Below, piece by piece: positions 3,164 to 29,877 of a stretch of 32,903 nt of DNA. How positions within the stretch are numbered: the first letter of the stretch is position 1; each line of letters opens with the position of its first letter. The stretch is taken from positions 1 through 32,903 of the forward strand of contig JAFYOF010000142.1 of NCBI GenBank assembly GCA_017560305.1. The letters are read 5' to 3'. The position numbers and the translations under genes are program-made. Source of the DNA: Alistipes sp. (GTDB taxonomy: Bacteria; Bacteroidota; Bacteroidia; Bacteroidales; Rikenellaceae). The notes beneath the pieces are model-generated. The model saw nothing but the letters and a program-made list of their open reading frames with translations, did no database searches and was not told where the DNA came from.

Positions 3164-3178
3164 AGCTCTTGTTTGTTA

Positions 3179-3243: not shown

Positions 3244-3296
3244 TTTCAAATTTCCAATTTTTGTCAAGTGCCTACGCCTCAACCATTTAACACTTT

Positions 3297-3312
3297 TGGC
3301 ACGGTTTCGGCA
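3297..3312 (+). promoter_or_regulatory. sigma-54 (-24/-12) promoter of the export operon
   Basis: TGGCACG (3297-3303), four bases, then CGGCA (3308-3312). The GG at 3298-3299 and GC at 3310-3311 have the invariant spacing of the -24/-12 consensus TGGCACG-N4-TTGCA, with 14 of 16 positions conforming (TT replaced by CG). The predicted start is near 3323, leaving a leader of about 27 nt before the ATG at 3350. Location in front of export genes divergent from an NtrC-type activator makes this a confident call. Confidence 0.78.
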
Positions 3313-3349
3313 TACTACAACCACAAACGAAGAAACACACAAAAATGAT

Positions 3350-4711: not shown

Positions 4712-4761
4712 TTATATTAGCAAAAGAATATTTTGAATTTTGAATTTTGAATTGAACTACT

Positions 4762-7212
4762 ATGAATACACTAAACTACTCATTCCGTTATTTGGCTAAC
4801 CGCCGAGGCAACACTCTGGCGCGATTTGTATCAATCTCATTGGGCTTGCTGGTTGCACTCCTCATCTTCTCGTATGTGGGTTTCAACCTCACATTTGACC
4901 GCTGTTTTAGCGACTACAACAGGATTTATGCCGCTTGGTCATATTCGCCGAAAGTAGGGTTCAAAAACGAGATTTCATTCGTGGCGGCAGAGGCAATGGC
5001 TGCCGAGATTCCGCAGATTGAGGCGATAACCTACTTCTATGGAGGAGGCAAAGATAGTGAAGGAGAAATGATATACAACAACGAGAGTTATCGCTGGAAG
5101 GGATGCTTAAGGTTACGGGATAACAAAAACTTATTTGATGTATTTGATTTTGATATTATATGTGGCGACCCACAGCAATTAAATACTACAAGCATAATGA
5201 TTTCACAGAGTTTCGCCAAAAGGGTCTTCGGCAATGAAGACCCTATGGGGAAGGTATTGAACGACAAAAGTCGCTCAACTCCTTGCGAATACACTATCTG
5301 TGGAGTCTTTGCCAATACACCTGCAAACACCTCAATGGGAAGTTTTGATATAGTGATGTATGATAAACAACAGAGGTCTTGGCAAGGTCAAAGAATTGAC
5401 CTTTGGGGTCTGACTGTCCCAACCTATATCAAACTGCATAAGGGTGCAAAGATTGAAGATGTAGAGCGCAACTTGGTGGAGATAAACAAGCGTTTCAAAG
5501 AGTACAATGAGTCTATGGATAGAAGTGTGATATTAGTTCCCCTAAAGGATAACTACTTCCAAGACAACAATCTTCGCCAAACACAACTTCTGCTTACCAT
5601 TGTCGGCATTATGGCGTTGGTGGTGGCTTGCTTGAATTATGTTCTGCTCTCTATCTCATCGCTTGCCGAGCGTAGCCGCACCATAGCAATGCTACGCTGT
5701 CACGGAGCGCAGAAGAGCGATATATTTAAGATGTTCGCAGTTGAAACCCTGCTTATCATGGGCGCAGCCATTGCGTGGACGGCATTTATGATATGGTGCT
5801 TGGATAAGGAGATATTCTCCCTCACAGGCTACCATAACGATGTGTTGTTTGCTTGGGAGCGCATCTGGATACCGCTGCTTGTCTGTGTGGTGGCATTCCT
5901 GCTGTCGGGTTTGATTCCATCCTTGCTCTTTGCGGGTGTGAAACTCTCACGCGCCTTCCGAGGTGGTAGCGATAGTTACCGTCTATGGAAACGCAGTTTA
6001 CTTTTTATACAGATTACCTGCACTATCTCAGCCGTTATCTTCCTCGCCATTTGTCTGCGCCAGATGCACTATGTACAGAACAAAGATATGGGATACAACA
6101 TTGACAATGTCTATATGATAGCGTATTTGAGAACTAATAGTTACGCTGGTATTCTGCCCATACGCGACGAGATAGCAGACTATCACGCTGTGGAGGCTAT
6201 TTCATTGTCATCATCAGGTCATAGTTTCTTGACTAACGACGAAGAGCGTAATATGTATGTGGATGAAAATAACCAGTTTCAATTTCCAATCCACGAATTG
6301 TGGTGGGATGCAGAGGTTCTCGATGTATTCAAATTTGAGTTGCTGGAAGGTCGCACATTCCACTCCGATGAGTATCCTATTGAGTGGGAAGATATATTGA
6401 CTACTCGAAATGTATTAATCAATGAGACCTTCAAAAAACAGATGGGCATAGAGGGTTCTCCTATTGGAAGACTAATCCAAATCGGAGATATCAGTTATGC
6501 AAATATTGACCAATGCAAGTATCGTATCATTGGCGTGGTAAAGGATTTTTATATAAGACGCGGCGTTGTGAAGCCCATAATAATCCACAATGGTACATTC
6601 AACCCAGCACGAGATATTAACGAAAGTTATTTGTCAAGTTCACAAGGCGTGCCATTGGCATCCGTCTGGCCAACGGTGCGTTTCAAGAAAAAGCCTTCAA
6701 AGGAGGATGTGGAGTACATACTTAATATTCTCAACGAGAAAAACTATGATGTTACGGAGAAGGATAAATTCAATCTCATCAGTTCCAAAGAGACCTTTAT
6801 GAGTCAGTTTGAGGGCGAGCGCAAGGTGAGCATCACAATGCTTGTGGTTTGTGTGATTACACTCATCATCGCACTGTCGGGACTTATTGGCTATATGGAT
6901 AACGAGATGCAGCGCCGCCGCAAAGAGATTGCAATTCGCAAGGTGGCGGGAGCTACCGTTGGCGAGGTGATGGTAATGGTCGCAGCGGATTTGTTGTGGA
7001 TAACTATTCCTGCAACCGCTTTCGGTGTTGTTATCGCCTATATGGCTGGCTCAGCGTGGATGCAGACCATCGCAGGTTTGCGTGCGCCACTCTCGTGGTG
7101 GATATTTGCCGCTGGCGCAATGCTCGTTTTGGCTATTGTCTATGCCATCCAGATTGCCCGCACTTGGCACACCGCCACTGCAAACCCTATTGAGATGATT
7201 AAAACTGAATAA
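4762..7212 (+). CDS. ABC transporter permease A1, double FtsX/MacB type
   Basis: An 816-residue inner-membrane permease. TM1 is at about 21-42, followed by a MacB-like periplasmic domain (43-272). A first FtsX domain (about 275-400) carries the coupling segment LAERSRTIAMLRCHGAQKSD; a further TM lies near 418-435, then a second periplasmic domain, then a C-terminal FtsX domain (about 690-805) with RRRKEIAIRKVAGATVGEVM. This gives about eight membrane segments, so one chain may equal a dimer of ordinary four-TM permeases. It is a paralogue of A2 (8626-11022): the first ~35 residues and last ~125 residues are nearly identical while the periplasmic parts differ strongly. No ATPase is fused, so it presumably uses the one encoded at 11220. 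The transported substrate cannot be inferred. Confidence 0.93.
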   Translation: MNTLNYSFRYLANRRGNTLARFVSISLGLLVALLIFSYVGFNLTFDRCFSDYNRIYAAWSYSPKVGFKNEISFVAAEAMAAEIPQIEAITYFYGGGKDSEGEMIYNNESYRWKGCLRLRDNKNLFDVFDFDIICGDPQQLNTTSIMISQSFAKRVFGNEDPMGKVLNDKSRSTPCEYTICGVFANTPANTSMGSFDIVMYDKQQRSWQGQRIDLWGLTVPTYIKLHKGAKIEDVERNLVEINKRFKEYNESMDRSVILVPLKDNYFQDNNLRQTQLLLTIVGIMALVVACLNYVLLSISSLAERSRTIAMLRCHGAQKSDIFKMFAVETLLIMGAAIAWTAFMIWCLDKEIFSLTGYHNDVLFAWERIWIPLLVCVVAFLLSGLIPSLLFAGVKLSRAFRGGSDSYRLWKRSLLFIQITCTISAVIFLAICLRQMHYVQNKDMGYNIDNVYMIAYLRTNSYAGILPIRDEIADYHAVEAISLSSSGHSFLTNDEERNMYVDENNQFQFPIHELWWDAEVLDVFKFELLEGRTFHSDEYPIEWEDILTTRNVLINETFKKQMGIEGSPIGRLIQIGDISYANIDQCKYRIIGVVKDFYIRRGVVKPIIIHNGTFNPARDINESYLSSSQGVPLASVWPTVRFKKKPSKEDVEYILNILNEKNYDVTEKDKFNLISSKETFMSQFEGERKVSITMLVVCVITLIIALSGLIGYMDNEMQRRRKEIAIRKVAGATVGEVMVMVAADLLWITIPATAFGVVIAYMAGSAWMQTIAGLRAPLSWWIFAAGAMLVLAIVYAIQIARTWHTATANPIEMIKTE

Positions 7213-7221
7213 AAATACACG

Positions 7222-7311
7222 CGTCATTCCGAGCAAGCGTAGTGAGCGTGGGAATCTCATTTGATGATAAACTGATTGCCACGCCGGGCTAATGCCCTCC
7301 TCGCAATGACG
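7222..7311. repeat. REP-like palindromic intergenic element
   Basis: A 90-bp element bounded by CGTCATT and AATGACG, with the internal blocks GGGAATCTC and GATTGCCACG...CCTCCTCGC. It has the look of the dispersed imperfect palindromes starting CGTCATTCC/CGTCATTGCGAGG found between genes in many bacterial genomes. It fills most of the gap between permease A1 and the adaptor. A related but diverged element lies at 11038. Confidence 0.65.
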
Positions 7312-7345
7312 AGGGAAATATAACCCCAAAATAAAAATTACAACT

Positions 7346-8608
7346 ATGGATATTAAACTTGAGAAGAAAACAGGCTGGAAGGCTCTCTTTCAGAAGAAAA
7401 ACATCCCTTACGCAGTTGCTGCGGTATTTATCATTTTGGTCATCTCGCTCCTGCTGCGTGACAACTCATCCACACTGCGCGTTGATGCCAACATCCTCAC
7501 AATCTCGCCCGTCGAGCAGACCGAGTTCAACGACTATGTGCGTCTGTCGGGTGCGGTGAAGCCAATCACCACGGTGCAGATTTCGCCAATGGAGACAGGA
7601 CTGGTGGAGCGCATCGTTGCCGAGGAGGGTACGATGGTCAGAAAGGGCGATGTGATTGTCGAGCTCTCCAACAATAACCTTTCGATGCAGATTCTCAACT
7701 CCGAAGCCGATCTTGCCGAGAAGCAGAACATCCTGCGCAACACCCTTATCCAGATGGAGAAGGATCGTCTTTCGTTGCGTCAAGAGCAGATGCAGCTCGA
7801 TATGGAGGTGGAGCGCAAGCGTCGCACATTTGAGAATAACGATGTGCTCTACAAAAAGGATTTGTTGGCGCGTGAGGTGTGGTTGCAGTCGAAGGAGGAC
7901 TATGAGTACTCGGTGAAGCGTCGCGCATTGGTTATGGAGCGTCAAAAGCAGGACTCGCTCTACCGCACCAATCAGGTGAAGCAGATGGATAGCGACCTGC
8001 AGTCGATGTCCCGCAATATGCAGCTCATACGCCAGAGAGTGGATAACCTCTGCGTGAAGGCTCCTATCGACGGCGAGGTGGGTGCATTGGATGTGGTGCT
8101 GGGGCGTAATGTAGGCTCTGGCTCCTCTATCGGTCAGATTAACGATATGTCGGCGTTCAAGGTCTCAACACAGATTGATGAGCACTACATCGACCGCATC
8201 GTGGTGGGTCTGCCTGCCACCATCGAGCGTCAGGAGCGCAAATACGATATGGTCATCCGCAAGGTCTATCCCGAAGTCAAGGGCGGTCAGTTCCGTGCCG
8301 ACTTTACCTTTGCGGGCGAGGTACCCGACAATATCCGCATCGGTCAGACCTACCACATCAACCTGCAGCTCGGCGAGGCGAGCGAGGCTGTCATCATCCC
8401 TCGTGGCGCATTCTACCAGGCCACAGGCGGCGGATGGATATATGTGGTTGATCCTTCGGGCGAGAAGGCTTACCGCCGCGATATACGCATAGGTCGCCAG
8501 AACCCACAACACTATGAAATTCTGGAGGGTCTTGAGCCAGGCGAGAAGGTCATCACCTCGGCTTACGATAACTTCGGCTCACACGATGTACTTATTTTGA
8601 AGAAATAA
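7346..8608 (+). CDS. periplasmic adaptor (membrane fusion) protein, HlyD/MacA type
   Basis: A 420-residue adaptor anchored by one N-terminal membrane helix (about 20-37). A lipoyl/barrel-sandwich half-motif follows (VQISPMETGLVERIVAEEGTMVRKGDVIVEL, quoted here in part as GLVERIVAEEG and VRKGDVIVEL), then a long charged coiled coil (about 115-230), then the second lipoyl half (NLCVKAPIDGEVGAL) and a beta-barrel/membrane-proximal region with RIGQTYHINLQLG and the C-terminal LEPGEKVITS. It should bridge the ABC permeases in the inner membrane to the TolC-like channel. It sits between permeases A1 and A2, 17 bp before A2, consistent with cotranscription. Confidence 0.93.
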   Translation: MDIKLEKKTGWKALFQKKNIPYAVAAVFIILVISLLLRDNSSTLRVDANILTISPVEQTEFNDYVRLSGAVKPITTVQISPMETGLVERIVAEEGTMVRKGDVIVELSNNNLSMQILNSEADLAEKQNILRNTLIQMEKDRLSLRQEQMQLDMEVERKRRTFENNDVLYKKDLLAREVWLQSKEDYEYSVKRRALVMERQKQDSLYRTNQVKQMDSDLQSMSRNMQLIRQRVDNLCVKAPIDGEVGALDVVLGRNVGSGSSIGQINDMSAFKVSTQIDEHYIDRIVVGLPATIERQERKYDMVIRKVYPEVKGGQFRADFTFAGEVPDNIRIGQTYHINLQLGEASEAVIIPRGAFYQATGGGWIYVVDPSGEKAYRRDIRIGRQNPQHYEILEGLEPGEKVITSAYDNFGSHDVLILKK

Positions 8609-8625
8609 TAAAACCTCAAAACATT

Positions 8626-11022
8626 ATGAATACACTAAACTACTCATTCCGTTATCTGTCAAACCGCCGAGGCAACACCCTTGCGCGATTTGTTTCACTT
8701 TCACTTGGTCTGTTTGTCGCAATAATCATCTTTGCGCGGGTAGGCTATTACCTCTCTTACGACCGCTGGATACCCGACTATAAGCGCATATACACATTGG
8801 GCGAGAGTCACAATAATGAACCACGAATCGACTATCGAGTGCGTTATCCTATCTATGAAAAAATAGTTAGCGAAAATCCTCTTTTCGAGGCTGCTACAGT
8901 CACGCAATATTATAGCCGCAAGATGAGCTATGAAAATCGTGAGGCTGTTGAGATGCGTTTGGGTGAAGTATCAAACACTTTTTTTGATGTCTTCGACCTT
9001 AAAATCATCAGTGGTGACCCCCATAAGATACTCTCAACTCCAGATGCTGCTATGATTTCCGACAGTGGTGCGAAGAGACTCTTTGGTGACGAAAATCCAC
9101 TCGGGAAAACCGTTCAGGTGTATAATGATGTCGGTGATAAGGTTGCTAAAGAAGTAACTATTCAAGGCGTATATAGTAATTGGGATAGCAGGCCGACACA
9201 CATATATATATTGAATAATGCCGATCTATTGCTTGCCTTTCGACCTGAAGAGCAAGGATTATCACACTCCGAATACAAATGGCTACTCTCGTTTGCGACC
9301 TATGTCAAACTTCGCAAAGGTGCAAACGAAGCAGATGTTGAAAAGAATTTAGAGGGTATCGCAGAAAGAGCAGGTGCACCCGAGAAGTATCTGCAAAGTG
9401 AGGAGAATTACAAGACCAAGTATCACATTGTACCCATACGAGAAATGTACCAGAATGATAGTGATATAACAATGGTGGCTCTTATGTCGGGCATCGCAAT
9501 TCTGGCTTTGGTTGTTGCCTGCTTGAACTATATTTTGCTCTCTATCTCGTCACTTGCCGAGCGCAGTCGCACCATTGCTATGCTGCGATGCCACGGAGCG
9601 CAGAAGAGCGATATTTTCCGTCTCTTCCTGGTAGAGACATTGTTAATCACTGGCAGCGCAACACTCTGGACATCGTTTATGATTTGGTGCCTGGAGAAGG
9701 AGATCCTCCACCTGATAGGATGGTCGTTAAAATTAATGTTTGCGTTTAATTTGTTGTGGATACCCATTGTAGTCTGCTGCTCGGCATTCCTGCTTGCAGG
9801 CATTATCCCAGCGTGGTTGTTCTCACGAGTTAAGCTGGAGACAGCCTTTAGAGGTGGTGGCGAGAGTTATCGTTTCTGGAAGCGAGCCTTGCTGTTCGTG
9901 CAGATGGGATGCACCGTGGCGGTGTTGATATTTATGATTATATGTATTCGCCAGACACAGTATCGCCGCAATATGGACTATGGCTACCACATAGAAAATA
10001 TTTATGCTGTGAGTCTGTATCCGCCAGAGGAAGAGAGAAATAATTACGATTATAATCTTCCATCGCGCGATGCTGTGTTGAGTGAGATTAAACGCTTCCC
10101 GTTTGTTGAGGCTGTTTCAATCGGAGATAATCCTCTGAATGCCTCTACATCGCAGATATTCCTCACTACCGCAGATGAACAACGAAAACCTCTTTTTCAC
10201 TATATTGATTTGCAATGGTCGTCAGCAGACTTTGCCGAGTTTTTAGGTATTGAGTTGGTTGATGGTCGCTATCTGACTGAAGATGATGGCAGGGACAAAT
10301 GCCTTGTAAATGAGCTTTTGGTGGAGCGTATGGGTTGGACAGATTCTGCTATTGGCAAATATATCGGAGCTTGGGCAGGAACCTATCAGATTGTGGGTGT
10401 TGTGAAAGATTTTATGTCGGCAAAAGAGGGAACTGTAATACCTGCTGTGATATATAAATCCTCTGAGTTCACACTGAAAAAGCGCTACACTGTTGCTATG
10501 CGTTTCTCTACTAAAGCCACCGACGAAGAGCGTGAGCAGGTGCTCGCAATATTAAAAAATATGACGGGCAACGATGAATTGCAGATGTATTCTTACGAAG
10601 AGCGTCTGGAGGATAGCCTGGATGAAATAAAGGCTATGCGTAATCTAATCACCGTTATCTGCGTGATTACGCTCATCATTGCTCTGTCGGGCTTGATTGG
10701 CTATATGGATAACGAGATGCAGCGCCGACGCAAGGAGATTGCCATTCGTAAGGTGGCGGGAGCTACCGTTGGCGAGGTGATGGTGATGGTCGCAGCAGAT
10801 TTGTTGTGGATAACTGTGCCTGCAACCGCTTTCGGCGTGGTTATCGCCTATATGGCTGGCTCAGCGTGGATGCAGACCATCGCAGGTTTGCGCGCTCCAC
10901 TCTCGTGGTGGATATTTGCATTGGGCGCAGCACTTGTTTTGGCTGTGGTCTATGCCATTCAGATTGCCCGCACTTGGCACACCGCCACTGCAAATCCAAT
11001 CGAGATGATTAAGACGGAATAA
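8626..11022 (+). CDS. ABC transporter permease A2, double FtsX/MacB type
   Basis: A 798-residue paralogue of permease A1 with the same architecture: N-terminal TM (21-42), periplasmic domain, FtsX domain with LAERSRTIAMLRCHGAQKSDIF, a middle TM, a second periplasmic domain and a C-terminal FtsX domain (RRRKEIAIRKVAGATVGEVM). The 5' 30 bases are identical to A1, and the last ~370 bases are nearly identical, while the periplasmic regions have different lengths and little shared sequence. That pattern suggests gene conversion at the ends with diversification of the exposed regions. A1 and A2 could form alternative or mixed complexes with the single ATPase. Confidence 0.93.
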   Translation: MNTLNYSFRYLSNRRGNTLARFVSLSLGLFVAIIIFARVGYYLSYDRWIPDYKRIYTLGESHNNEPRIDYRVRYPIYEKIVSENPLFEAATVTQYYSRKMSYENREAVEMRLGEVSNTFFDVFDLKIISGDPHKILSTPDAAMISDSGAKRLFGDENPLGKTVQVYNDVGDKVAKEVTIQGVYSNWDSRPTHIYILNNADLLLAFRPEEQGLSHSEYKWLLSFATYVKLRKGANEADVEKNLEGIAERAGAPEKYLQSEENYKTKYHIVPIREMYQNDSDITMVALMSGIAILALVVACLNYILLSISSLAERSRTIAMLRCHGAQKSDIFRLFLVETLLITGSATLWTSFMIWCLEKEILHLIGWSLKLMFAFNLLWIPIVVCCSAFLLAGIIPAWLFSRVKLETAFRGGGESYRFWKRALLFVQMGCTVAVLIFMIICIRQTQYRRNMDYGYHIENIYAVSLYPPEEERNNYDYNLPSRDAVLSEIKRFPFVEAVSIGDNPLNASTSQIFLTTADEQRKPLFHYIDLQWSSADFAEFLGIELVDGRYLTEDDGRDKCLVNELLVERMGWTDSAIGKYIGAWAGTYQIVGVVKDFMSAKEGTVIPAVIYKSSEFTLKKRYTVAMRFSTKATDEEREQVLAILKNMTGNDELQMYSYEERLEDSLDEIKAMRNLITVICVITLIIALSGLIGYMDNEMQRRRKEIAIRKVAGATVGEVMVMVAADLLWITVPATAFGVVIAYMAGSAWMQTIAGLRAPLSWWIFALGAALVLAVVYAIQIARTWHTATANPIEMIKTE

Positions 11023-11037
11023 AAACTATAACCCTCG

Positions 11038-11148
11038 CGTCATTCCCCGCCACAAGCATAGCGAGTGGCGAAGGGAATCCTCCAGGGAATTAACAAAAAA
11101 TGAGTGGAAGATCCCCATCGCCTAACCTACGGTTAGTCGGGGGATGAC
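11038..11148. repeat. REP-like palindromic intergenic element, second copy
   Basis: Starts CGTCATTCCCC and ends GGGGGATGAC, so the ends are inverted. A 6-bp hairpin, CTAACC-TAC-GGTTAG, lies near the right end. It resembles the element at 7222 in its left end and overall organisation but is clearly diverged. It separates permease A2 from the ATPase gene, leaving an AT-rich stretch (11149-11219) before the ATPase start. Confidence 0.5.
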
Positions 11149-11219
11149 TAAGGAAAAACGAAAAAAACAATATAAAAAACACATAACACAATTTATTAAC
11201 CAATTAAAATTTTACAATT

Positions 11220-11906
11220 ATGACAATGCTTAAAGTAACGGATTTGAAGAAGAGTTTCTTCACCGAGGAGATTGAGACCGTAGCCCTTGCAGGCGTATCT
11301 TTCGAGGTTAAGGAGGGCGAGTTCGTCGCCATTATGGGTCCTTCAGGTTGCGGTAAGTCAACCCTGTTGAACATTCTGGGTCTGCTGGACAACCCAACAA
11401 GTGGCGAGTATATGCTCCTGGACAACGAGGTGGGCAACCTCAAGGAGCGTGACCGCACCTACTTCCGCCGTGGCAACATCGGCTTTGTGTTCCAGTCGTT
11501 CAACCTTATCGACGAGATGAATGTGTCGGAGAATATTGAGCTTCCGCTGATTTATATGGGTGTGAAGCCTGCCGAGCGTAAGGAGCGCGTAAAGAAGATG
11601 CTGGAGCGTATGGATATGACCCACCGCGCAAAGCACTTCCCACAGCAGCTCTCGGGAGGTCAGCAGCAGCGTGTAGCCATCGCGCGCGCCCTGGTGAGCA
11701 ACCCCAAGCTCATCCTTGCCGATGAGCCTACGGGTAATCTCGACTCAAAGAATGGTCAGGAGGTTATGAACCTCTTGCGCGAGCTCAACAGCGAGGGCAC
11801 AACCGTGATTATGGTAACCCACTCACAGCACGACGCATCCTACGCACAGCGCATCTTGTGCTTGTTTGATGGTAAGCTGGTAACGGATGTTCGCAGCCGT
11901 ATGTAA
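11220..11906 (+). CDS. ABC transporter ATP-binding protein, LolD/MacB family
   Basis: A 228-residue stand-alone nucleotide-binding subunit with every catalytic motif: Walker [10 protein letters not shown] (40-48), Q-loop (FVFQSFNL, Q92), signature [15 protein letters not shown] (144-158), Walker [14 protein letters not shown] (164-176) and switch His201 (VMVTHSQHD region). The family powers mechanotransmission or lipoprotein-extraction type transporters built on FtsX-like permeases. It is the only ATPase in the locus, so it probably serves all four permeases. A second in-frame ATG two codons downstream (11226) is an equally possible start. It is followed by a hairpin and the conserved leader of permease B1. 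Confidence 0.96.
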
Positions 11907-11954
11907 TCGCTGCTACGGAGCATAGTTGAAACCGTATATACTCCGTCGGCTTCA

Positions 11955-12015
11955 GGTGCGAGGGCGGGTGATGCCCCCTCGCATCACAAAATAAATAACA
12001 AAAAACTTAAATACT
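11955..12015 (+). repeat. hairpin plus leader shared by permeases B1 and B2 (copy 1)
   Basis: A stem TGCGAGGG (11957-11964) / CCCTCGCA (11976-11983) is followed by an A-rich leader ending directly at the ATG of permease B1. The same block, with one or two changes, precedes permease B2 (14447-14507). The hairpin could be an attenuating or mRNA-stabilising stem between ATPase and permease. The block is duplicated together with the 5' coding region. Confidence 0.6.
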
Positions 12016-14400
12016 ATGAAAATCGCATTTCAAAACTTTCTAACAACGCTCAAGCGTTACAAGACAGCCTCTATTCTCAACATTGCAGGCTTGACCATTG
12101 CTTTTATCGCCTTCTACATTCTGATGGCGCAGGTACATTACGACCTATCGTACAACAAATCAATCAAAGACCACGACCAGATTTATGCTATCGCGGTGAC
12201 TGAAGGCGATTTAAGGTATGAGATGTGGAAAATTAGCGCGCCAGAGGGGACTTCACAACGAGCATTTGAGAGTTGTCCCGATGTTGTAGGGTATGGTTTT
12301 ATATCTGACTACTCTAACGATAAATGTTATAAGCAGGTCTCGGCAGATTATTACGAAGTGTTTCCTTATGGATTTGACCAGATATCGTTATCAGCCATTG
12401 AACTTTTAGGGATGGAGTGTCTGGCGGGTGACCTAACTCGTATCGCAGAACCTCAAACGATAATTATTGCTGAATCGGTAGCCGAAACAATGAAACTCGG
12501 TATAGGAGATTCTATATATGAAGCATACAATATGATGGACGGACGCACCTGCAGAGGTGAGGTTCCTTATACGGTTGTAGGCATATACAAAGATTTACCC
12601 CACAATTCACTATTTGGCAGATTAAAGTGCTTAACAACACCACCTAAACATTATTCTTATTTAGCATCACGCAATACAGGTCACAGCGGCTGGACGTTTG
12701 TAAAGTTGCGAGAAGGTGCCGATGCGGCAAACTTCGAGAAGATTTGGCGCGATGACTACACTGCTTGGGCTGAGGGTGTGGATTCCAGCGAACAGAATGT
12801 GGACAAGCAACGAAAAATGAGGCTGATCCCTATTGCTGCTACATATTTTCAGCACTTTATGGACACACATACAAACGGCTCAAAAAAAGCCACTTACTTG
12901 TGGATATGTATTGCATTCATAATCATCGCTATCGCCTTTATCAACTTTGTCAATTTCTTCTTTGCATTGATACCTGTGCGCATAAAGGCTGTGAACATAA
13001 GCAAGATTTTTGGTGCTTCCAATTTTACCTTGCGCTGGAGTTTCCTATTTGAGGCTTTGGCTCTAACACTCATATCACTCGCGCTTGCACTCTATCTGAT
13101 GATTGCCATAAAAGATACTTTCATCAGCAACTATCTTTCAGCGTCGCTTGATTTCAGTGATAATCTGCCAACCATTGGATGGGTAACACTCATTGTGGTG
13201 GTTATGGCTCTCACCGCTGCTCTCTATCCTGCGTGGTACATCACCTCGTTTAATCCCTCGTTAGCCGTCAAGGGCGGTTTTGCGGGATCACGCGCAGGAC
13301 GATGGTTGCGTATGATTCTGATAACTGTGCAGTTTACCATCTCGACCACATTGGTGACAATTTCCTTACTGCTATGGTTGCAGTATCGCAATATTGTGAA
13401 GTTTGATGTTGGCTACCAGACCGACAATGTTGTCACATTCCAGATGGCTACACCCCACTTAACCGATCGTTTCAACGCCATAATGGAGGAGTTGAGCAAA
13501 AACCCTGATGTTATTGATATAACCTACGCCGCACAATCAATATATTCAAACTCTAATATTGAGTGGGTAACTGTTGGCAACGACAGACTTCCTATGATGG
13601 GTGGAGGTGTGCATAATTCATTCCTGCGTTTCTTCAATATCCCTATTCAAATGGGCGAGGATTTTTCAGCGGATGCCACTAACCGAGAATGGATTATTGG
13701 AGAGAAGTTGCACATTGAAAAGGGTGTAAACATCGGCGATAGTTTGAATGGTCAAGGTCGTGTGGTGGGTATTATCAAGGATGTACAACTCACCTCACTT
13801 GATTTCGTTCAATATTTTATGGGATTTTTCGCGCCCGCAGATATTAGATATATGGCAACAGAGTTCTATGTGCGAATACCATCATCTGTTAGTCTCGATG
13901 ATATACGCCGTTACATACAACAGACATTGGCGAAATTTGATCCTTCGCTTGAAGAGGTTGATGTGCAATATCTTGACTACCATATGCAAAAGCGCTATGA
14001 AGACGACCGAAAAGGATTAAATATCTCCACACTCTTTTCTATCGTGGCAATAACCATCTCGCTGATGGGTGTATTTGGCTTGGTAATCTTTGAGACTCAA
14101 TATCGCCGTAGAGAGATAGCCATCCGACGCGTGTTTGGAGCAACACGCCAAAGTGTGATATGGAAAATGAATATGCAGTATGCGATAATACTTATCGTAT
14201 GCTTTATCATAGCAATGCCTATTGCTCGATGGTTTGCAAATATGAATTATGCACATTTTATCGCAGGACAATTGGAAATATCGTGGTGGATGTTTGCTGT
14301 AAGCGGTGGTATGATAGCACTCATAACACTGGGATTGGTTACCTATCGCAGCATAAAGTCCACCAACGAAAACCCCGCGCAGGTGGTCAAAGGAGAATAA
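12016..14400 (+). CDS. ABC transporter permease B1, double FtsX/MacB type
   Basis: A 794-residue inner-membrane permease of the same general design as A1/A2 but from a separate subfamily. TM1 (about 18-40, SILNIAGLTIAFIAFYILMA) is followed by a large periplasmic domain, a first FtsX domain (from about 290, with FINFVNFFFALIPVRIKAV and NISKIFGASNFTLRWSFLFEA), a middle TM (LRMILITVQFTISTTLVTIS) and a C-terminal FtsX domain with YRRREIAIRRVFGATRQSV. The segment contacting the ATPase is therefore intact twice. Its first ~40 codons and upstream leader are nearly identical to those of B2, whereas the periplasmic domain is unrelated at a glance. It shares the downstream position after the ATPase gene, so is likely the same transcription unit. 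Confidence 0.92.
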   Translation: MKIAFQNFLTTLKRYKTASILNIAGLTIAFIAFYILMAQVHYDLSYNKSIKDHDQIYAIAVTEGDLRYEMWKISAPEGTSQRAFESCPDVVGYGFISDYSNDKCYKQVSADYYEVFPYGFDQISLSAIELLGMECLAGDLTRIAEPQTIIIAESVAETMKLGIGDSIYEAYNMMDGRTCRGEVPYTVVGIYKDLPHNSLFGRLKCLTTPPKHYSYLASRNTGHSGWTFVKLREGADAANFEKIWRDDYTAWAEGVDSSEQNVDKQRKMRLIPIAATYFQHFMDTHTNGSKKATYLWICIAFIIIAIAFINFVNFFFALIPVRIKAVNISKIFGASNFTLRWSFLFEALALTLISLALALYLMIAIKDTFISNYLSASLDFSDNLPTIGWVTLIVVVMALTAALYPAWYITSFNPSLAVKGGFAGSRAGRWLRMILITVQFTISTTLVTISLLLWLQYRNIVKFDVGYQTDNVVTFQMATPHLTDRFNAIMEELSKNPDVIDITYAAQSIYSNSNIEWVTVGNDRLPMMGGGVHNSFLRFFNIPIQMGEDFSADATNREWIIGEKLHIEKGVNIGDSLNGQGRVVGIIKDVQLTSLDFVQYFMGFFAPADIRYMATEFYVRIPSSVSLDDIRRYIQQTLAKFDPSLEEVDVQYLDYHMQKRYEDDRKGLNISTLFSIVAITISLMGVFGLVIFETQYRRREIAIRRVFGATRQSVIWKMNMQYAIILIVCFIIAMPIARWFANMNYAHFIAGQLEISWWMFAVSGGMIALITLGLVTYRSIKSTNENPAQVVKGE

Positions 14401-17041: not shown

Positions 17042-17869
17042 TTACTCAATTCTCACCATCTCCGCCAACTGAACGAAATAGTCATTTGACCAGATTTCCA
17101 ACTCCTTCGGATTGCGAACAAAAGGCAACACATCCTCTTTTACTTGCTTTATATCAGCCGTCGAAAGGCGCTCCTTGAGTTTCTCCTTGAATAGTTCTGG
17201 AGTAACATCTTCATTATTGAACTGTTTGCATCTTTCAGCTAAGTGTGCAAAATCAAGCGGTACATTATGGCGTACATACCACTCAAAGTCGTACCAGTCG
17301 CGTCCCTTAACTCTATTCTTCCACGCACGATATACCAGGGCATGCATCTTACCTGCAAACAAATCGGGTAAAGTGAAGCAACGAGTCATGAATGAATGAG
17401 GCTGCAACAATAGTTTCTGCGCGGTCTTAAAATTCAGTGGAGGACAAGTATCAACCTCAATCTTGATTTTAATGGACTTCTCTGTTTGAAACAATACATC
17501 ATATACATCGGTATTATCCTTTAGAAAGGCAGACTCAACATTGCCGAAATTCTTCTTATCCTTCTTCTTGATTTCTACCTCACGCCCTACCAAGGCGAAT
17601 GCATCAACAATGGGTCGGAAATATTTGCTGAAGTCAAATGCATCATCCTGTGCTAGCAAAGAAAAATCCATATCTTCACTGAAGCGTTGCAACCCGTGAA
17701 AGATTCTCAGACAAGTATCGCCATAGAATGCTGCGGATTCAAAAAATCCACCACTATACAACCCGGCAAGAATCACCTGTTGGTTTACTTCAAATATGGC
17801 GTTTCGCTTATTCTGCTCTGTCGTCAAATCATAGCGTGACAACATGTTATCGTAAATTTCATTCTTCAT
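17042..17869 (-). CDS. AbiEii-family nucleotidyltransferase toxin (type IV toxin-antitoxin)
   Basis: A 275-residue protein with the DUF1814/AbiEii nucleotidyltransferase pattern: YGDTCLRIFHGLQRFSEDMD (49-68) with the G50-D51 loop and the acidic pair D66/D68, then KIEVD (136-140) and the family's basic signature KNRVKGRDWYDFEWYV (184-199). Members transfer nucleotides to RNA acceptors and arrest growth; the cognate AbiEi represses the operon. All key residues look intact. Its start overlaps the AbiEi-like stop by 4 bp (ATGA, 17866-17869), the normal antitoxin-then-toxin order. AT-rich content relative to the export genes points to horizontal gain. A weak stem TACCAA/TTGGTA (16998-17020) downstream could end its transcript. 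Confidence 0.9.
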   Translation of the reverse strand: MKNEIYDNMLSRYDLTTEQNKRNAIFEVNQQVILAGLYSGGFFESAAFYGDTCLRIFHGLQRFSEDMDFSLLAQDDAFDFSKYFRPIVDAFALVGREVEIKKKDKKNFGNVESAFLKDNTDVYDVLFQTEKSIKIKIEVDTCPPLNFKTAQKLLLQPHSFMTRCFTLPDLFAGKMHALVYRAWKNRVKGRDWYDFEWYVRHNVPLDFAHLAERCKQFNNEDVTPELFKEKLKERLSTADIKQVKEDVLPFVRNPKELEIWSNDYFVQLAEMVRIE

Positions 17870-18492
17870 CGTCTCAGAAACTTTAATAGGGTTGCAATAG
17901 AATCGGCCTTTTTTCCTACCTTAATATAGTTTTCAAAAATTGTAGTATCAAACTTATAAAATTCATCCATCTCCATTCGGATGTCATGCTCAAGATAGTT
18001 TTCCACATCCTTCAAAAAGCGCAGATTGACCTTTGACGAATTTGCTATCAAATCACACAAAGCCTTTTCGGGTGATGCTATCAAGAAAGCATATTCTCCC
18101 TTATGTATGCTCCTCACTCCTACAGAAAAGGCATCTCGGGCAATGTATTTGTAATCGTAATTACCAATAGGAGTCTGAAAACTTCGGGAATGCTTTACCG
18201 TCATTGACTGATGCGTAAATACAGCCTCTGGAATCAAACCATAATACCTCAATGCCGTCGACATAGAGATGTAAGAAGGTGCATATAGATGATTAGCTAT
18301 CAATTCATTTGAAAGTGTCTTTCCCGAATGTTCGGGGTTGACAACATAGAGTCCTCGCTTCAATCTTATGATATACCCGTTCTTCTCAAGCCAAACAACC
18401 TTCTTATCTGCAGACTTGAGTTCTGGATATAACGATTCGATAACTGAAGTCGTTATAGGGATAGCTCCTATTTCCTTTAATTGTCTTTTCAT
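17866..18492 (-). CDS. AbiEi-family antitoxin/transcriptional regulator
   Basis: A 208-residue protein, first gene of the pair. The N-terminal ~50 residues look like the winged-helix region of AbiEi antitoxins, ending with YIIRLKRGLYVV (40-51), and are followed by the family's LYAPSYISMSTALRYYGLIPE segment (69-89) and a C-terminal region with SPEKALCDLI. It should neutralise the toxin and bind its own promoter. The promoter element TATATTTG lies at 18504-18497, so the expected transcription start falls on or beside the ATG; the mRNA may be leaderless. No alternative start is available nearby (next in-frame Met is residue 77). Confidence 0.85.
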   Translation of the reverse strand: MKRQLKEIGAIPITTSVIESLYPELKSADKKVVWLEKNGYIIRLKRGLYVVNPEHSGKTLSNELIANHLYAPSYISMSTALRYYGLIPEAVFTHQSMTVKHSRSFQTPIGNYDYKYIARDAFSVGVRSIHKGEYAFLIASPEKALCDLIANSSKVNLRFLKDVENYLEHDIRMEMDEFYKFDTTIFENYIKVGKKADSIATLLKFLRR

Positions 18493-24503: not shown

Positions 24504-24764
24504 ATGGAAATAATATCTACTTTTGCCAGTGAAAAAGAACAACAACCAATAGAAGTGACAACGGTTCCAAGCATAGAGAACTCCACCACCGAGGAGCGCC
24601 GCGCATTCGTTGCAGAGCAATGGAGATGCCTACACAATTGCGAGTTATGCGGCAAGTGCAACATCCTCAAGGGGCGCAACGCCGAGTTACTCTACGCCGA
24701 CTACATCGAGGGACGCCGCACCTATCGGGAGATAACACTTGAAATTAGAAACAGAAACTATTAA
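24504..24764 (+). CDS. small cysteine-rich hypothetical protein
   Basis: An 86-residue protein I cannot name. After a polar N-terminus it has C42-x3-C46-x2-C49-x2-C52 (CLHNCELCGKC) followed by a basic, well-behaved region (LKGRNAELLYADYIEGRRTY). Four cysteines at this spacing suggest a metal site, zinc or iron-sulfur. It is 12 bp upstream of the winged-helix-like small gene at 24777 and in the same direction, so the two are probably cotranscribed. Coding is supported by the conserved-looking C-terminal half and the tight spacing, not by a known domain. Confidence 0.65.
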   Translation: MEIISTFASEKEQQPIEVTTVPSIENSTTEERRAFVAEQWRCLHNCELCGKCNILKGRNAELLYADYIEGRRTYREITLEIRNRNY

Positions 24765-24776
24765 AACATTTTTACT

Positions 24777-24956
24777 ATGGAGACTAAAGCAAAAGTATTG
24801 GAGACAATGAAGCAGGCAGGTGAGCCTTTGAACGCTGGCAAGATTGCCGAGTTGAGCGGTATCGACCGCAAGGAGGTTGACAAGGCTATGAAGCAGCTCA
24901 AGGAGGAGGGCGCAATCATCTCTCCAGTCCGCTGCAAGTGGACCGCAGCAGAGTAA
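24777..24956 (+). CDS. small winged-helix-like protein (59 aa)
   Basis: A 59-residue frame, ATG 24777 to TAA 24956. It reads as a compact winged helix: a first helix ([10 protein letters not shown]), [12 protein letters not shown] with the turn, a recognition-like helix [16 protein letters not shown] and a short wing IISPVRCKW. Small proteins of this kind are common in Bacteroidales and are annotated as transcriptional regulators, without experimental function that I know of. It directly follows the Cys-rich gene and is closed by a hairpin at 24989, so the pair forms a short operon. Confidence 0.75.
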
Positions 24957-24988: not shown

Positions 24989-25016
24989 AAAGGCTGCCGC
25001 TTTAGCGACAGCCTTT
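24989..25016. terminator. bidirectional terminator between converging operons
   Basis: AAAGGCTG (24989-24996) pairs with CAGCCTTT (25009-25016), extended by CGC/GCG around a TTTA loop. It is followed by T's on the plus strand (TCTTT) and preceded by A's (AAAAC), so it can serve the small-gene operon and the converging WG-repeat operon. Confidence 0.85.
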
Positions 25017-25019
25017 TCT

Positions 25020-26183
25020 TTATCTCTCTACAACATTTCCCTTAGTATCAATCAGGTAACAACCATAGTTATCGGCAGATCTTACCCGAAAGAGCGTAGG
25101 CGAAATCATCTCAACCTCACCATAGATGGCTGGGGTTATAGGCTCGCCCGTGATGCGGTTGAAGATACCGTATTTGCCCAGAATGCAATACTCCGAGTAG
25201 TCGGAAAGAGCATATACATAGAAGCAATCCTCCTCATCATCCTCGCGTTTTGATAGCGGATAACTCAACACTTCGCTCGACTCAAAGAGGAACGAATGGA
25301 CCACATTACCCTCATAATCCTCCTGCCACATCCGTCCATCCTTAATCAGTATGAAGCCGCCCTTTTTAGTGAAGTTCTCGGCACACTCATACTCGGGCTC
25401 ATAGACGATATTCATCTGGGCATCAATAATGCCATAGCGGTTATTGGCAGTCACAGTTCTGTAGCCCATCTCCTGCGGTGACCACACCCTGTCGAAGCGA
25501 GGCTCAATCGCCCAGTTGCCCTGCTTGTCAATCAAGCCGAACTTACCATTCTCGCCCACCATCTGGCAGTAACCGCCGTGGAAGAGAAAGGCATACTCAC
25601 GCCACTCACGATACTCCGGCAGAGTGTACTGAAATGGAATAACCACCTCATTTTGAGCATTTATAAAGCCCACCTTACCATCCTCAACAACCGCCGCCAA
25701 GCCCTCGGAGAAGACCCACGCATTGGTGTAGTTGTTCTGCTTCGCGTCGATTACTATGCGACCTGTGTTGATGTTGAGAAAACCACGGCGGTGAGGCAGA
25801 GCGTAGACCGTGAGTGAGTCACACTCGGTTGCAATAGATACCCAGTTAAGGCGTGGCGTAGTGTACTTGCGCGCCTCGGCATCGTAGACCCTCACCTTAT
25901 GATCACGAAAGTCGTAGACCTTGATATTCTCCGAGAGATAGCTGGGGTAATAGCTCCATCTGCCGAAGTTGTTGTCATAGATTCGGTAGATATTCCACCC
26001 GACGACAAAGAGCACAAAACCCACAACAGCCCCACCGATGGCGCGACGCCACCACTTCGAGAAACCTCGCCACCACGCACGCATCTTGCGAATCGCAAGG
26101 CGACCAATGCCCACCAGCGACGAGAATACCACCGACGCCAGACCGACAATCATCTGGCACACCTCCTTAAAAGTCATATCCAT
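25020..26183 (-). CDS. membrane-anchored WG-repeat protein
   Basis: A 387-residue protein, last gene of the pseudokinase-AAA+ operon. Two hydrophobic stretches (about 9-29 and 49-66) flank a strongly basic segment (RKMRAWWRGFSKWWRR). If that loop is cytoplasmic, the rest is outside. The remainder consists of WG-type repeats: GKVGFINAQNEVVIPFQY, GKFGLIDKQGNWAIEPRFD, NRYGIIDAQMNIVYEPEY, GKYGIFNRITGEPITP and a last YGCYLIDTKGNVVE. Such repeats form beta-propeller-like binding surfaces. It lies 13 bp after the vWA gene. It may anchor or signal for the operon's cytoplasmic ATPase, but this is inference from neighbourhood and topology. Confidence 0.85.
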   Translation of the reverse strand: MDMTFKEVCQMIVGLASVVFSSLVGIGRLAIRKMRAWWRGFSKWWRRAIGGAVVGFVLFVVGWNIYRIYDNNFGRWSYYPSYLSENIKVYDFRDHKVRVYDAEARKYTTPRLNWVSIATECDSLTVYALPHRRGFLNINTGRIVIDAKQNNYTNAWVFSEGLAAVVEDGKVGFINAQNEVVIPFQYTLPEYREWREYAFLFHGGYCQMVGENGKFGLIDKQGNWAIEPRFDRVWSPQEMGYRTVTANNRYGIIDAQMNIVYEPEYECAENFTKKGGFILIKDGRMWQEDYEGNVVHSFLFESSEVLSYPLSKREDDEEDCFYVYALSDYSEYCILGKYGIFNRITGEPITPAIYGEVEMISPTLFRVRSADNYGCYLIDTKGNVVER

Positions 26184-26196
26184 AATCCGTTAGTTA

Positions 26197-26844
26197 TTAA
26201 TACTCATCATCATCGTCATCATTCTCAAAGAAATTCTCGTTCGCCGATTTGGCGCAGAAATCCACGCTCGACATCATACAATAGAGCATATTACGACTGC
26301 GGTTCATCGTACGCGTCATATCTCGTGTACCGCTTGGCGTTGCCTTAAACTCCATAACATTGGTAATGGAGATGGATGATGCGACAGCCTCCACATCGTG
26401 GTTTGCACCGAGGTAGGCAAACACCCAACCCTTCTCCTTCAGCTCATCCACCAGAGCCTTGATTGCCGAAGAGGTATACTCCCTCGAAGCATTCTCCAGG
26501 CCATCGGTCACAACGGTCACCAGCACACGGTCACCCTCCTCTACCTTACTGCGCAAGGCTGTGAGTGAAAATCCCATTGCATCATACAGAGCCGTGAAGC
26601 AATTGGGCTGATAGGTCTCGTCGTCAAACTCCTTTACTTCATCCACCGACACACAGTCGCATATGGTCTTGACCGTATCGTTGAAGGTCACGATTGTGAC
26701 AAAATGGTGCTGATCCTCGTGCTTTCGCTGCGCCTCACGGATGGTCTGGATAGTCTCGTTCACATTGTCAATAGCCTCCTCCTTGATTCTGTTCATCGAA
26801 CCGCTCGCATCGAGAATGATGAGATTGAAAATCTTTGTTGTCAT
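26197..26844 (-). CDS. von Willebrand factor A domain protein with intact MIDAS
   Basis: A 215-residue, probably cytoplasmic vWA protein. The metal-ion-dependent adhesion site is complete: DASGS (12-16), Thr84 in CFTALYDAM and TDG (113-115). The core spans about 5-190 and resembles TerY-type vWA proteins. The C-terminus is very acidic (NDDDDDEY). TerY-like vWA proteins occur in triads with phosphatases and kinases and with AAA+ ATPases in stress- and conflict-linked systems, where they act as metal-dependent scaffolds. It sits third in the operon, 79 bp after the DUF1810 gene and 13 bp before the WG gene. Confidence 0.9.
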   Translation of the reverse strand: MTTKIFNLIILDASGSMNRIKEEAIDNVNETIQTIREAQRKHEDQHHFVTIVTFNDTVKTICDCVSVDEVKEFDDETYQPNCFTALYDAMGFSLTALRSKVEEGDRVLVTVVTDGLENASREYTSSAIKALVDELKEKGWVFAYLGANHDVEAVASSISITNVMEFKATPSGTRDMTRTMNRSRNMLYCMMSSVDFCAKSANENFFENDDDDDEY

Positions 26845-26923
26845 AATTCTTATAGTTTTGTGTTAGTTGTTTTCTTTTATTGAGTCCTCCGCTGCGGGAA
26901 ATCTATCTCCCAAGGGGCACTTT

Positions 26924-27352
26924 CTACTCTCCCTCCAGCATTGCAAGCGTTGCCTGACACTCGCCATCGTAGAACGCCTCAAGCACCTGTCCAAAGACCT
27001 CGTTGGGCGCAAGGCGGTTGAAAAGCGTCATACACGAGCGCACCTTGCAGGCGTCAATGCCGCCCAAAATCTGCTCCGCCGACAGCGCGCGATGCTCAAG
27101 CAACGCCTGCGAAATCTCTCGCAGACGCGCTCCAAGCACCTGATGATTCAGGTAAGCCGTAGCCTCCGCCACATCCACAATGCCGTAAAACAGGGCATAA
27201 TGGCTACGACCCAAGCCCCTCATCTGGGGGAAGATATACCAAATCCAATGAGAACTCTTTTTGCCCGCACGAATCTCCTTCAGGGCAACATCATAACCAA
27301 AGTATGGCGACTCCTGAGCCACCACGAACCGATTAAGATTTACTTCTGGCAT
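26924..27352 (-). CDS. DUF1810 family protein
   Basis: A 142-residue protein matching DUF1810 over its whole length: NRFVVAQ (7-13), IRAGKKSSHWIWYIFPQM (27-44), GLGRSHYALFYGI and EATAYLNHQVLGARLREI (63-80). The family is small, single-domain and of unknown biochemical activity. Conserved His35 and the aromatic-rich WIWYIFPQ segment could form a binding pocket. It usually appears as an isolated gene; here it lies between a pseudokinase-AAA+ fusion (29 bp upstream) and a vWA gene, which gives a rare context for its role. Confidence 0.88.
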   Translation of the reverse strand: MPEVNLNRFVVAQESPYFGYDVALKEIRAGKKSSHWIWYIFPQMRGLGRSHYALFYGIVDVAEATAYLNHQVLGARLREISQALLEHRALSAEQILGGIDACKVRSCMTLFNRLAPNEVFGQVLEAFYDGECQATLAMLEGE

Positions 27353-27381
27353 AATAACTTATATTTTTTAGAACCTACTTT

Positions 27382-29310
27382 TTAAAAACCAATCCTGCGT
27401 CGCTCCTGCTGAGTCTTCTGCTCAAGCCTATCCCTCATCGTTGCATACTCCTCCACCGAGCGCTTTGTCACCGAGCGGCGTGACCTGCCAATCTCGCTTA
27501 CCAGCATCTCCTGCGAGATAGGCTCATCGGCCATAGCAGCCTCCAGAGCACTCTCGTTCACCATAAAACTGATGTCGCTTGCCACATATCCATCACTCAG
27601 GGTGGCCAACTCGTCGTAGTCGATACTCTTGGCGCAGTAACGACCCTCAAGGTGAATGCGGAACATCTCGCGGCGTGCCTCAAAGTCGGGCAAGGGGATG
27701 TAAACCATCTTGTCGATACGACCCGTGCGCAGAATGGCGGGGTCAATCTTATCGGGGCGGTTTGAGGTACCAATCACGAAGATTCCCCTCTCTGCGCAGT
27801 TGTTCAGCTGACTCAGGAACTCATTCACCTCACCCGAGATGCTATCGTTGCGCAGCGAAGCGCGGTCGGGCACCATACCATCCAACTCATCGAAGCAGAT
27901 GACAGTAGGCGCTTTGCGGGCAGCCTCCTCAAATAGCTCGGCAATCCTGCACTGCGTGCCGTGAACATAGATGCTACCCAAGTCTGATGCCTTCACCATC
28001 ATAAAGTTGAGCTTCGACTCCTCGGCGAACTTCTCGGCAATGAAGGTCTTGCCACACCCTGGAGGACCATAGAACAGAGCGCCATTGGGCGACTTGAGGC
28101 GGTACTTCAGCGCCTTCTCCTTGTTCTGTATCACAAACATCACCTCGCGGCGGAGCATCCTCTTCACCTCCTCCATACCCGCCACCTCGGCGAAACCCCT
28201 GCCAAAGCGTGGGCGGATGGTGAAATCCCCACGCTCCTGGGATGTTGCGGGGTAATCAAACTCATCGAATTCATCCGATTCTTCTCGGCGGCGACGACCA
28301 CCTGGGGTCTCGAAAAAATTACTCTCGCAAGAGTTACGCTCACCATCATCGCCCTCGCCGAAGCTGCTGCAGTCATCTGCGCTGCTGAAATCCTCCTCCT
28401 GACGATAGGTCTCAACCCACGACTTGGGGCGTGAGCTGGCAAACCGCTTCACTTCAACCTTGTCGGGACCATTGATCAGGTCGCCAAGAGCCTCCTCGAC
28501 TGTCCGGTATCTCTCCTTGCACTTGAGCGCCAGCATCCTGTGGAGGATATACCTCTGCTCATCGGTCAGCATCAGACCATAGAGTATCTCATCGCCCGCC
28601 ATTCGCAGAGCATTCAGCCTCTCCTTGCTAACCCGTGCGCTACCCGCATCGGCAGGGGTGCTCCAGGGCTCACGCCCCATCAGCATAAAATACATCAACG
28701 CTCCTATCGAAAAGATATCGGTCTGCTCGTTGTAGACCCCGCTGAAGGTCTCGGGAGCACGATACCACATATTCAAAAACCTTGGGTTGAAGTGCAGCTT
28801 GCCCTTCGTGACGGGCGAGATATAGTCATAACCCGTAATCTGCACCAGCAGTGGCTCTAAGCCACATTCTACACCCACCGTGCTGGGGTTTATGTTGTTG
28901 TGGATGACTGGTGGCTGATGATTGTGAATCCCCTGGGTTATCTCCAGCACCTGCTGGATAATCTCTGCAGCCTCCTTCCACTTGTATCGCTTACCCTCGC
29001 CAAAAACGCTTTCACGCACGCTTAAATCGGAGTAATCGTGAACAACCATATATCTGTACCCCACTCCCCCGATCCGCATCACATCAGCATCGGGCACGGG
29101 GCAGAACATCAGCGAGCTGCGCATCCTGGTAATTGTCGCCCACTCGAAAGGCTCCTCAACGCCCTCATTTGCAAAGACCTTAATAATATACTTCCTGTTC
29201 ATCTTATTGACAGCGGCGTAATGCTCTACCTTGCCGCCCATCTTTCGGCCGATGAACTCAGTAATGATAAACTCATCGACCCAATCACCAACTCTTAATA
29301 GCGATTTCAT
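27382..29310 (-). CDS. pseudokinase-AAA+ ATPase fusion protein
   Basis: A 642-residue cytoplasmic protein, first of the four-gene operon. Residues about 10-285 fold like a Ser/Thr protein kinase: ATP-lysine-like K44 (YIIKVF), APE (185-187) and the invariant D198 of the F-helix (TDIFSIGALMYFML) are present. The catalytic HRD is HNN (137-139) and DFG is GYD (160-162), so phosphotransfer is very unlikely. A charged, low-complexity linker (about 300-365) follows. The C-terminal AAA+ domain, like those of Cdc48/FtsH/ClpX-type proteins, has Walker A GPPGCGKT (415-422), Walker B ICFDELD (471-477), sensor-1 GTSNRPDKID and arginine finger region RTGRID (528-533), with a helical lid to about 615. It should be an active hexameric ATPase with a pseudokinase as a regulatory or substrate-binding module. 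Confidence 0.9.
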   Translation of the reverse strand: MKSLLRVGDWVDEFIITEFIGRKMGGKVEHYAAVNKMNRKYIIKVFANEGVEEPFEWATITRMRSSLMFCPVPDADVMRIGGVGYRYMVVHDYSDLSVRESVFGEGKRYKWKEAAEIIQQVLEITQGIHNHQPPVIHNNINPSTVGVECGLEPLLVQITGYDYISPVTKGKLHFNPRFLNMWYRAPETFSGVYNEQTDIFSIGALMYFMLMGREPWSTPADAGSARVSKERLNALRMAGDEILYGLMLTDEQRYILHRMLALKCKERYRTVEEALGDLINGPDKVEVKRFASSRPKSWVETYRQEEDFSSADDCSSFGEGDDGERNSCESNFFETPGGRRRREESDEFDEFDYPATSQERGDFTIRPRFGRGFAEVAGMEEVKRMLRREVMFVIQNKEKALKYRLKSPNGALFYGPPGCGKTFIAEKFAEESKLNFMMVKASDLGSIYVHGTQCRIAELFEEAARKAPTVICFDELDGMVPDRASLRNDSISGEVNEFLSQLNNCAERGIFVIGTSNRPDKIDPAILRTGRIDKMVYIPLPDFEARREMFRIHLEGRYCAKSIDYDELATLSDGYVASDISFMVNESALEAAMADEPISQEMLVSEIGRSRRSVTKRSVEEYATMRDRLEQKTQQERRRIGF

Positions 29311-29737: not shown

Positions 29738-29877
29738 GGGAATTTCTCGGGGAATTTCTCGGGGAATTTCTCGGGGAATTTCTCGGGGTATATCACTGAA
29801 ATATCTCGGGGTATATCACTGAAATATCTCGGGAATATCTCGGGGAATATCACTGAAATATCTCGGAAAATTTCTCG
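29738..29877. repeat. 140-bp tandem array of 11/12-bp units in the LytTR 3' UTR
   Basis: Four exact tandem copies of GGGAATTTCTCG (29738-29785), then two exact copies of a 23-bp unit (29786-29808, 29809-29831) reading GGGTATATCACT plus GAAATATCTCG, then an 11-bp partial (29832-29842), a variant 23-mer (29843-29865) and a final 12-mer (29866-29877). The 23-mer is itself a 12-mer plus an 11-mer. The pattern 12-12-12-12-23-23-11-23-12 is not frame-preserving and lies wholly outside coding sequence. Confidence 0.9.

Follow-up and report, generated by a model that had tools for sequence, protein, structure and literature searches.

Within a 32,903-nucleotide contig of Alistipes sp. (assembly GCA_017560305.1, contig JAFYOF010000142.1), which was examined at its full length and is called the window below, we describe an operon of four genes (positions 25020-29310) encoding, in order of transcription, a pseudokinase-AAA+ fusion, a DUF1810 protein, a vWA-domain protein and a WG-repeat membrane protein (Table 1). 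We tentatively propose that this operon forms a membrane-coupled AAA+ remodelling switch acting in stress or conflict responses linked to nicotinamide adenine dinucleotide (NAD) and ADP-ribose. Counted in favour of this reading are the intact AAA+ and metal-ion-dependent adhesion site (MIDAS) motifs, the same-strand layout, two gene triples (loci L051 and L006), the co-occurrence and linkage of gene pairs, fusions of DUF1810 to ADP-ribosylglycohydrolase, a DUF1810 cluster with DarT, the gene content of locus L207, and an excess of ADP-ribose-type genes around relatives of the four genes.

Table 1. Features of the operon and of its downstream end.
Feature	Positions	Strand	Basis
Pseudokinase-AAA+ fusion, 642 residues (gene 1)	27382..29310	minus	Pfam Pkinase match at residues 86-269, AAA at 412-540 plus lid
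DUF1810 protein, 142 residues, Rv1873-like all-helical fold	26924..27352	minus	Pfam, fold comparison
vWA-domain protein, 215 residues, intact MIDAS motifs	26197..26844	minus	Pfam, motif alignment
Membrane protein with WG repeats, 387 residues	25020..26183	minus	Pfam, hydrophobic segments at about 7-31 and 47-69
Hairpin, candidate terminator, 12 pairs	24989..25016		between the operon end and a convergent helix-turn-helix (HTH) gene

The four open reading frames (ORFs) are co-directional, with intergenic gaps of 29, 79 and 13 bp in the direction of transcription. The original prediction, made from the DNA letters, had described this arrangement together with a terminator at its end; the ORF coordinates bear out the layout, and Pfam and motif comparisons bear out its domain calls for the four products. 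Proteins 98-99% identical to the AAA+, DUF1810 and vWA products exist in public data (the search covered these three), and hence these ORFs are not chance; relatives of the WG protein were found in genomes at 43-46% identity. Less similar public relatives include P0002 for AAA+ (68% identical), P0138 and P0139 for DUF1810 (87-89%) and P0242 for vWA (82%). Because the genes on either side of the hairpin converge, it may act on both strands, but by itself it is weak evidence, because 5 terminator-like sites were found in the window versus 4.6 in shuffled sequence, and we rely on its position instead. Converging on the operon from the plus strand are a small ORF and the HTH gene (24504-24956); in two plasmid records, from Bacteroides finegoldii and Phocaeicola massiliensis, 213 bases match this stretch at 75.6% DNA identity. 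The DNA separating the operon from a LytTR gene includes a tandem array of about 12 copies of a 12-base unit (29738-29877).

Pfam on the product of gene 1 returned AAA (PF00004) at 4.9e-32 and Pkinase at 2.3e-10. Among NCBIfam models, CDC48 and FtsH score best on the AAA+ part, and Foldseek places p97 in its top rows; the predicted model is of low overall confidence (predicted local distance difference test 72.5, predicted template modelling score 0.48) and was used solely to assign the ATPase fold. Judged by these profile and fold matches, the AAA+ part is classical and CDC48/p97-like, not of the MoxR clade. The Walker A and Walker B motifs, the sensor 1 motif and the two arginine-finger positions are all conserved in it. 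In the kinase part HNN replaces HRD and GYD replaces DFG (N139, G160), the catalytic-loop Asn is absent, and the beta-3 Lys44 and the APE motif are kept; because the HRD and DFG Asp residues that mark an active kinase are both lost, we class the domain as a pseudokinase by motif. In a 161-row alignment that includes a few duplicates, an Asp stands at the HRD position in 126 rows and at the DFG position in 27, and the window protein, with neither, is by this alignment at the degenerate end of its kinase family. PADLOC and NCBIfam matches to gene 1, among those listed, each cover one part of the protein.

The vWA protein matches Pfam VWA_2 at 2e-05, just under the cut-off (25.6 versus 27 bits), and its MIDAS motifs D12ASGS, T84ALYD and T113DG are present in it and in all 120 listed relatives. 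In the WG protein, four stretches of WG repeats (Pfam 1.9e-21) follow an N-terminal part in which the two hydrophobic segments flank a basic loop. From the positive-inside rule, applied to these stretches and loop, the repeats would lie outside the cytoplasm.

To examine how the four genes are associated, we searched each of 393 genomes from the order of genome G006 (labelled Bacteroidales) with all four proteins. Matches were found in 18 genomes for AAA+ (E 1e-55), 31 for vWA (1e-30), 15 for DUF1810 (1e-8) and 18 for WG (1e-15). All six pairs occurred in the same genome more often than expected, with p-values from 1.1e-6 to 0.026 that are uncorrected for relatedness: vWA-AAA+ 9 versus 1.4, AAA+-WG 6 versus 0.8, vWA-DUF1810 6 versus 1.2, vWA-WG 6 versus 1.4, DUF1810-WG 4 versus 0.7 and AAA+-DUF1810 3 versus 0.7. 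Three of the six were also found within 10 kb of each other above an expectation of 0.06-0.09, namely AAA+-WG (2/8 same-genome pairs), WG-vWA (2/7) and DUF1810-vWA (2/11), at p-values (0.0015-0.0037) that ignore relatedness and assembly breaks. G006, which was included for carrying the AAA+ gene, supplies one pair each to AAA+-WG, WG-vWA and AAA+-vWA.

Two loci, both chosen for carrying the AAA+ gene, hold three of the four genes. In L051 (labelled a Clostridiales metagenome-assembled genome) AAA+ at 9854, vWA at 12941 and DUF1810 at 17911 are all on the plus strand. Hsp70 and GrpE come before AAA+; vWA follows after one intervening gene and, past three more, a DUF1810 gene truncated by the contig end. 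In L006, AAA+ and a YbjN-like gene are on one strand and WG and vWA on the opposite one, all within 7 kb. Since L051 and L006 sit in different parts of the AAA+ tree, gene triples are associated in lineages far apart. The original prediction had staked its four-gene system on conserved linkage beyond very close relatives and had proposed a survey of Bacteroidota neighbourhoods: association of that reach is upheld by the triples, the co-occurrence and the pair linkage, and a fixed four-gene system is left unsupported. Its refuting condition, a lack of such linkage, thus holds for the full set and fails for subsets of three.

Relatives of the four genes recur beside genes of ADP-ribose metabolism. 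With nine ADP-ribose-type queries, whose kinds were picked after some loci had been seen (a point that tells against our reading), we counted 29 such genes in 1.13 Mb around the focal genes versus 1 in control stretches totalling 0.66 Mb, most of them taken from the genomes of these loci; when the 8 query genes themselves are left out, the count is 21 versus 1 (p 5e-4). By focal gene, an ADP-ribose-type gene was found in 9/32 loci for vWA, 6/19 for DUF1810, 2/13 for WG and 4/43 for AAA+ (two stretches double-counted), and the last two low values mean that vWA and DUF1810 account for the signal. vWA relatives carry a fused A1S_2505 domain (NCBIfam NF049995) and have as flanking genes an NtrR-like NUDIX gene together with ADP-ribosylglycohydrolase (L007, L162, L164) or the NtrR-like NUDIX gene (L118, L119), the NtrR match being under its curated cut-off (128 versus 400 bits). 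One vWA relative adjoins a PP2C gene (L154). On one strand of L156 (genome G337), TIR genes precede vWA, CreD and WG. L207 (genome G318) carries, also on a single strand, a member of this AAA+ family without the kinase part, followed by YbjN-like, WG, NADAR-like and A1S_2505-PARG genes; a CHAT protein is encoded nearby. The NADAR-like gene matches PF08010 at 1e-43 but falls below the cut-off for NADAR itself. By tblastn, vWA relatives occur in 215 phage records, all at less than 60% identity and mostly from Streptomyces, Microbacterium and Pseudomonas phages; in phage LukeCage, the sole neighbourhood examined of these, the table holds no ADP-ribose annotation, and a pattern scan confirmed no copy of the AAA+ or the vWA protein in viruses.

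The DUF1810 protein itself is securely assigned (PF08837 at 8.5e-51, 171.8 bits versus a curated cut-off of 25), and in Foldseek and VIA-align comparisons only 2jek (Rv1873) matches its fold clearly, well above background. The domain is distributed over Mycobacterium (Rv1873), rhizobial plasmids, Bacteroidota and viral contigs. It is fused to ADP-ribosylglycohydrolase in 4/15 DUF1810-bearing genomes, in two domain orders, and in 1/21 viral loci, and in L229 it clusters with DarT and ADP-ribosylglycohydrolase. The viral fusion lies at L268:293-1600, and its adjoining genes are phage-like by eye. Among 249 plasmid records with DUF1810, 3 were examined: in one, the second gene upstream is A1S_2505-like, and from the remaining two the seven queries used recovered DUF1810 at most. 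On the Prevotella plasmid NZ_CP091789.1 (L290), a Sir2-family NAD-dependent deacetylase gene adjoins a vWA relative, and DUF1810 is present near an A1S_2505-like gene. These fusions and neighbours suggest that DUF1810 takes part in ADP-ribose chemistry rather than acting as the "effector" originally supposed, and they offer a testable biochemical lead for a widespread domain. The larger claim, that DUF1810 is an unrecognised module binding or processing ADP-ribose or a derivative and that the operon is a membrane-anchored, pseudokinase-gated AAA+ switch that ties what is sensed at the envelope to a signal or modification based on ADP-ribose, we regard as doubtful.

Speculatively, the operon can be pictured as a switch that is linked to NAD and ADP-ribose, has a membrane sensor and has recruited an AAA+ remodeller; this function, read from genomic context, strikes us as plausible, if somewhat short of probable. 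The WG protein would sit in the inner membrane, its repeats facing outward, and sense the envelope or a ligand. The vWA protein may bind a target peptide through its intact MIDAS and present it, much as AAA+ rings of MoxR systems receive peptides from vWA co-chaperones (PMC7159879); the hand-over here is an analogy, because the AAA+ clade differs. The AAA+ ring, whose motor motifs are in place, would remodel the target or complex with ATP, gated by the pseudokinase domain as an allosteric or docking module, not an enzyme, and DUF1810 might set or clear the signal or modification by binding or processing ADP-ribose or a derivative.

Several results weigh against this proposal. No other genome examined has the four genes together (0/393 in the surveyed order), and the sole one of the 393 with all four, G154, has them on different contigs. 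Within 10 kb, AAA+-DUF1810 and WG-DUF1810 were never found (0/7 and 0/5 pairs), and AAA+-vWA was found in 1/11 (p 0.084). The ADP-ribose signal is thin around AAA+ and WG, and in the window the ADP-ribose-type and chaperone queries match nothing except DUF1810 itself. Among the Foldseek and VIA-align matches listed for the DUF1810 fold there is no known ADP-ribose enzyme, NADAR included, a result that excludes nothing. None of 30 DUF1810 loci from the order of genome G014 has an ADP-ribose-type gene within about 1.5 kb, nor a vWA gene, DUF1810 being by the queries used a lone gene there, and 20/21 viral DUF1810 loci lack an ADP-ribose-type gene in the available stretch. The scattered set in G154, the absence of the joint set from other genomes and the unlinked pairs would be expected if four independently mobile genes from a shared phyletic pool of stress genes had come to be co-transcribed by chance and did not form one system. 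We consider such a loose neighbourhood rather unlikely. Against it stand the short co-directional gaps, the two triples in distant lineages and the three pairs linked above expectation.

The genomic contexts of the pseudokinase-AAA+ family bear on a different account, in which the protein is a Hsp70-linked chaperone unfoldase of protein quality control that has retained this role with new accessory genes and has no ADP-ribose function. Our scan of contigs for the AAA+ gene was diluted by generic CDC48-type matches; 80 loci were kept and 24 analysed, 21 of which were gene-clustered, the 56 outside the analysis being mostly archaeal and actinobacterial by label. Neighbour clustering revealed two recurring contexts, a Hsp70-type operon (J-like, coiled-coil membrane protein, Hsp70, AAA+, TerB-like) and a YbjN-like gene alongside AAA+. 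Hsp70 (8e-67) and GrpE in L051 (2.9e-17) are strong assignments, TerB-like (0.059) and YbjN-like (0.0058) weak ones, and the label "J-like" was given from the sequence start, with no Pfam support. In a 41-row tree, Hsp70 or J-like genes lie no more than about 6.5 kb away in 17 rows, frequently in the above order, which accords with quality control, as does the row of J-like, Hsp70 and WG genes in L186 (genome G392) that has no AAA+ gene. A YbjN-like gene without Hsp70 is present in 12 further rows (29/41 in sum). However, the window protein belongs to an 18-row clade (support 95/99; nearest P0002, then L109 of G154 and L006) in which Hsp70 context is found in 0/18 and a YbjN-like neighbour in 9/18 (scored from surrounding DNA for every row except P0002), and queries for Hsp70, GrpE, J-like, TerB-like and YbjN-like found no match in the window. 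We hold a pure quality-control role to be rather unlikely as well. Contig C40 of G154 carries two pseudokinase-AAA+ copies about 49 kb apart.

The original prediction pointed to stress and conflict systems that pair vWA with AAA+ and saw in DUF1810 a possible effector; a dedicated anti-phage defence along these lines appears to us very unlikely. Conflict systems combining vWA and AAA+ do exist (PMC7159879), TIR genes precede vWA-CreD-WG in L156, and DarT, NADAR-like, PARG and CHAT genes occur near relatives. On the other hand, PADLOC matches to gene 1 (best 25 of 34) cover the AAA+ or the kinase part alone, DUF1810 and WG are without a PADLOC match and vWA has a single weak one (E 0.012), the four products have no Pfam toxin or nuclease domain, and DUF1810 stands alone, by the queries used, in the 30 loci noted above.

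Elsewhere in the window, an AbiEii-type nucleotidyltransferase toxin (4.3e-32) is encoded on the minus strand at 17042-17869, overlapped upstream by an ORF at 17866-18492 that is possibly its antitoxin. The region 519-14400 holds a histidine kinase and a sigma-54 response regulator beside genes for outer-membrane efflux, HlyD and MacB/FtsX-type ATP-binding cassette transporter proteins.

Among known systems, the MoxR-vWA ternary systems (PMC7159879) share with the operon an AAA+ motor, a vWA protein with the metal-binding motifs DASGS, TALYD and TDG, and further components. Here, however, the AAA+ is of the PF00004 type with CDC48/FtsH and p97 as its best matches and carries a fused pseudokinase; no MoxR-clade AAA+ is found among the four products, and the operon is therefore not such a system. 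TerY-P triads (PMC11090510) also set a vWA protein beside a kinase-like protein, but their kinase bears a C-terminal zinc ribbon or OB fold, whereas in gene 1 the catalytic Asp residues are gone and an AAA+ domain follows. PP2C is missing from the four products and a PP2C query found no match in the window; with no PP2C and no active kinase, this is not a TerY-P triad. Both parallels drawn by the original prediction thus lack their defining features. IetS is a protease. Similarity to the IetAS defence system (PADLOC, NCBIfam) is confined to the AAA+ part (4.8e-27), with an NCBIfam IteA score of 83.1 versus a curated cut-off of 510 bits and no protease match in the four products. The NAD/ADP-ribose processing networks of PMC9503650 find a parallel in the ADP-ribosylglycohydrolase, NADAR-like, PARG, NUDIX, DarT and TIR genes that neighbour relatives of the four genes, although that paper is not one of the two in the literature searched that mention DUF1810, and the DUF1810 fold clearly matches Rv1873 only. 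The literature searched, with subscription papers outside it, yielded no description of a link between DUF1810 and ADP-ribose, nor of any system with this combination of genes, in agreement with the original prediction; its parts and logic (AAA+, vWA, ADP-ribose genes) are of known kinds. The same pseudokinase-AAA+ family is found in the Bacteroidota Hsp70/J-like/AAA-pseudokinase/TerB-like operon recovered in this analysis, to which the present operon does not belong, its clade being without Hsp70 context and DUF1810, vWA and WG following the AAA+ gene instead. Through its neighbours, this family connects chaperone genes with NAD/ADP-ribose genes.

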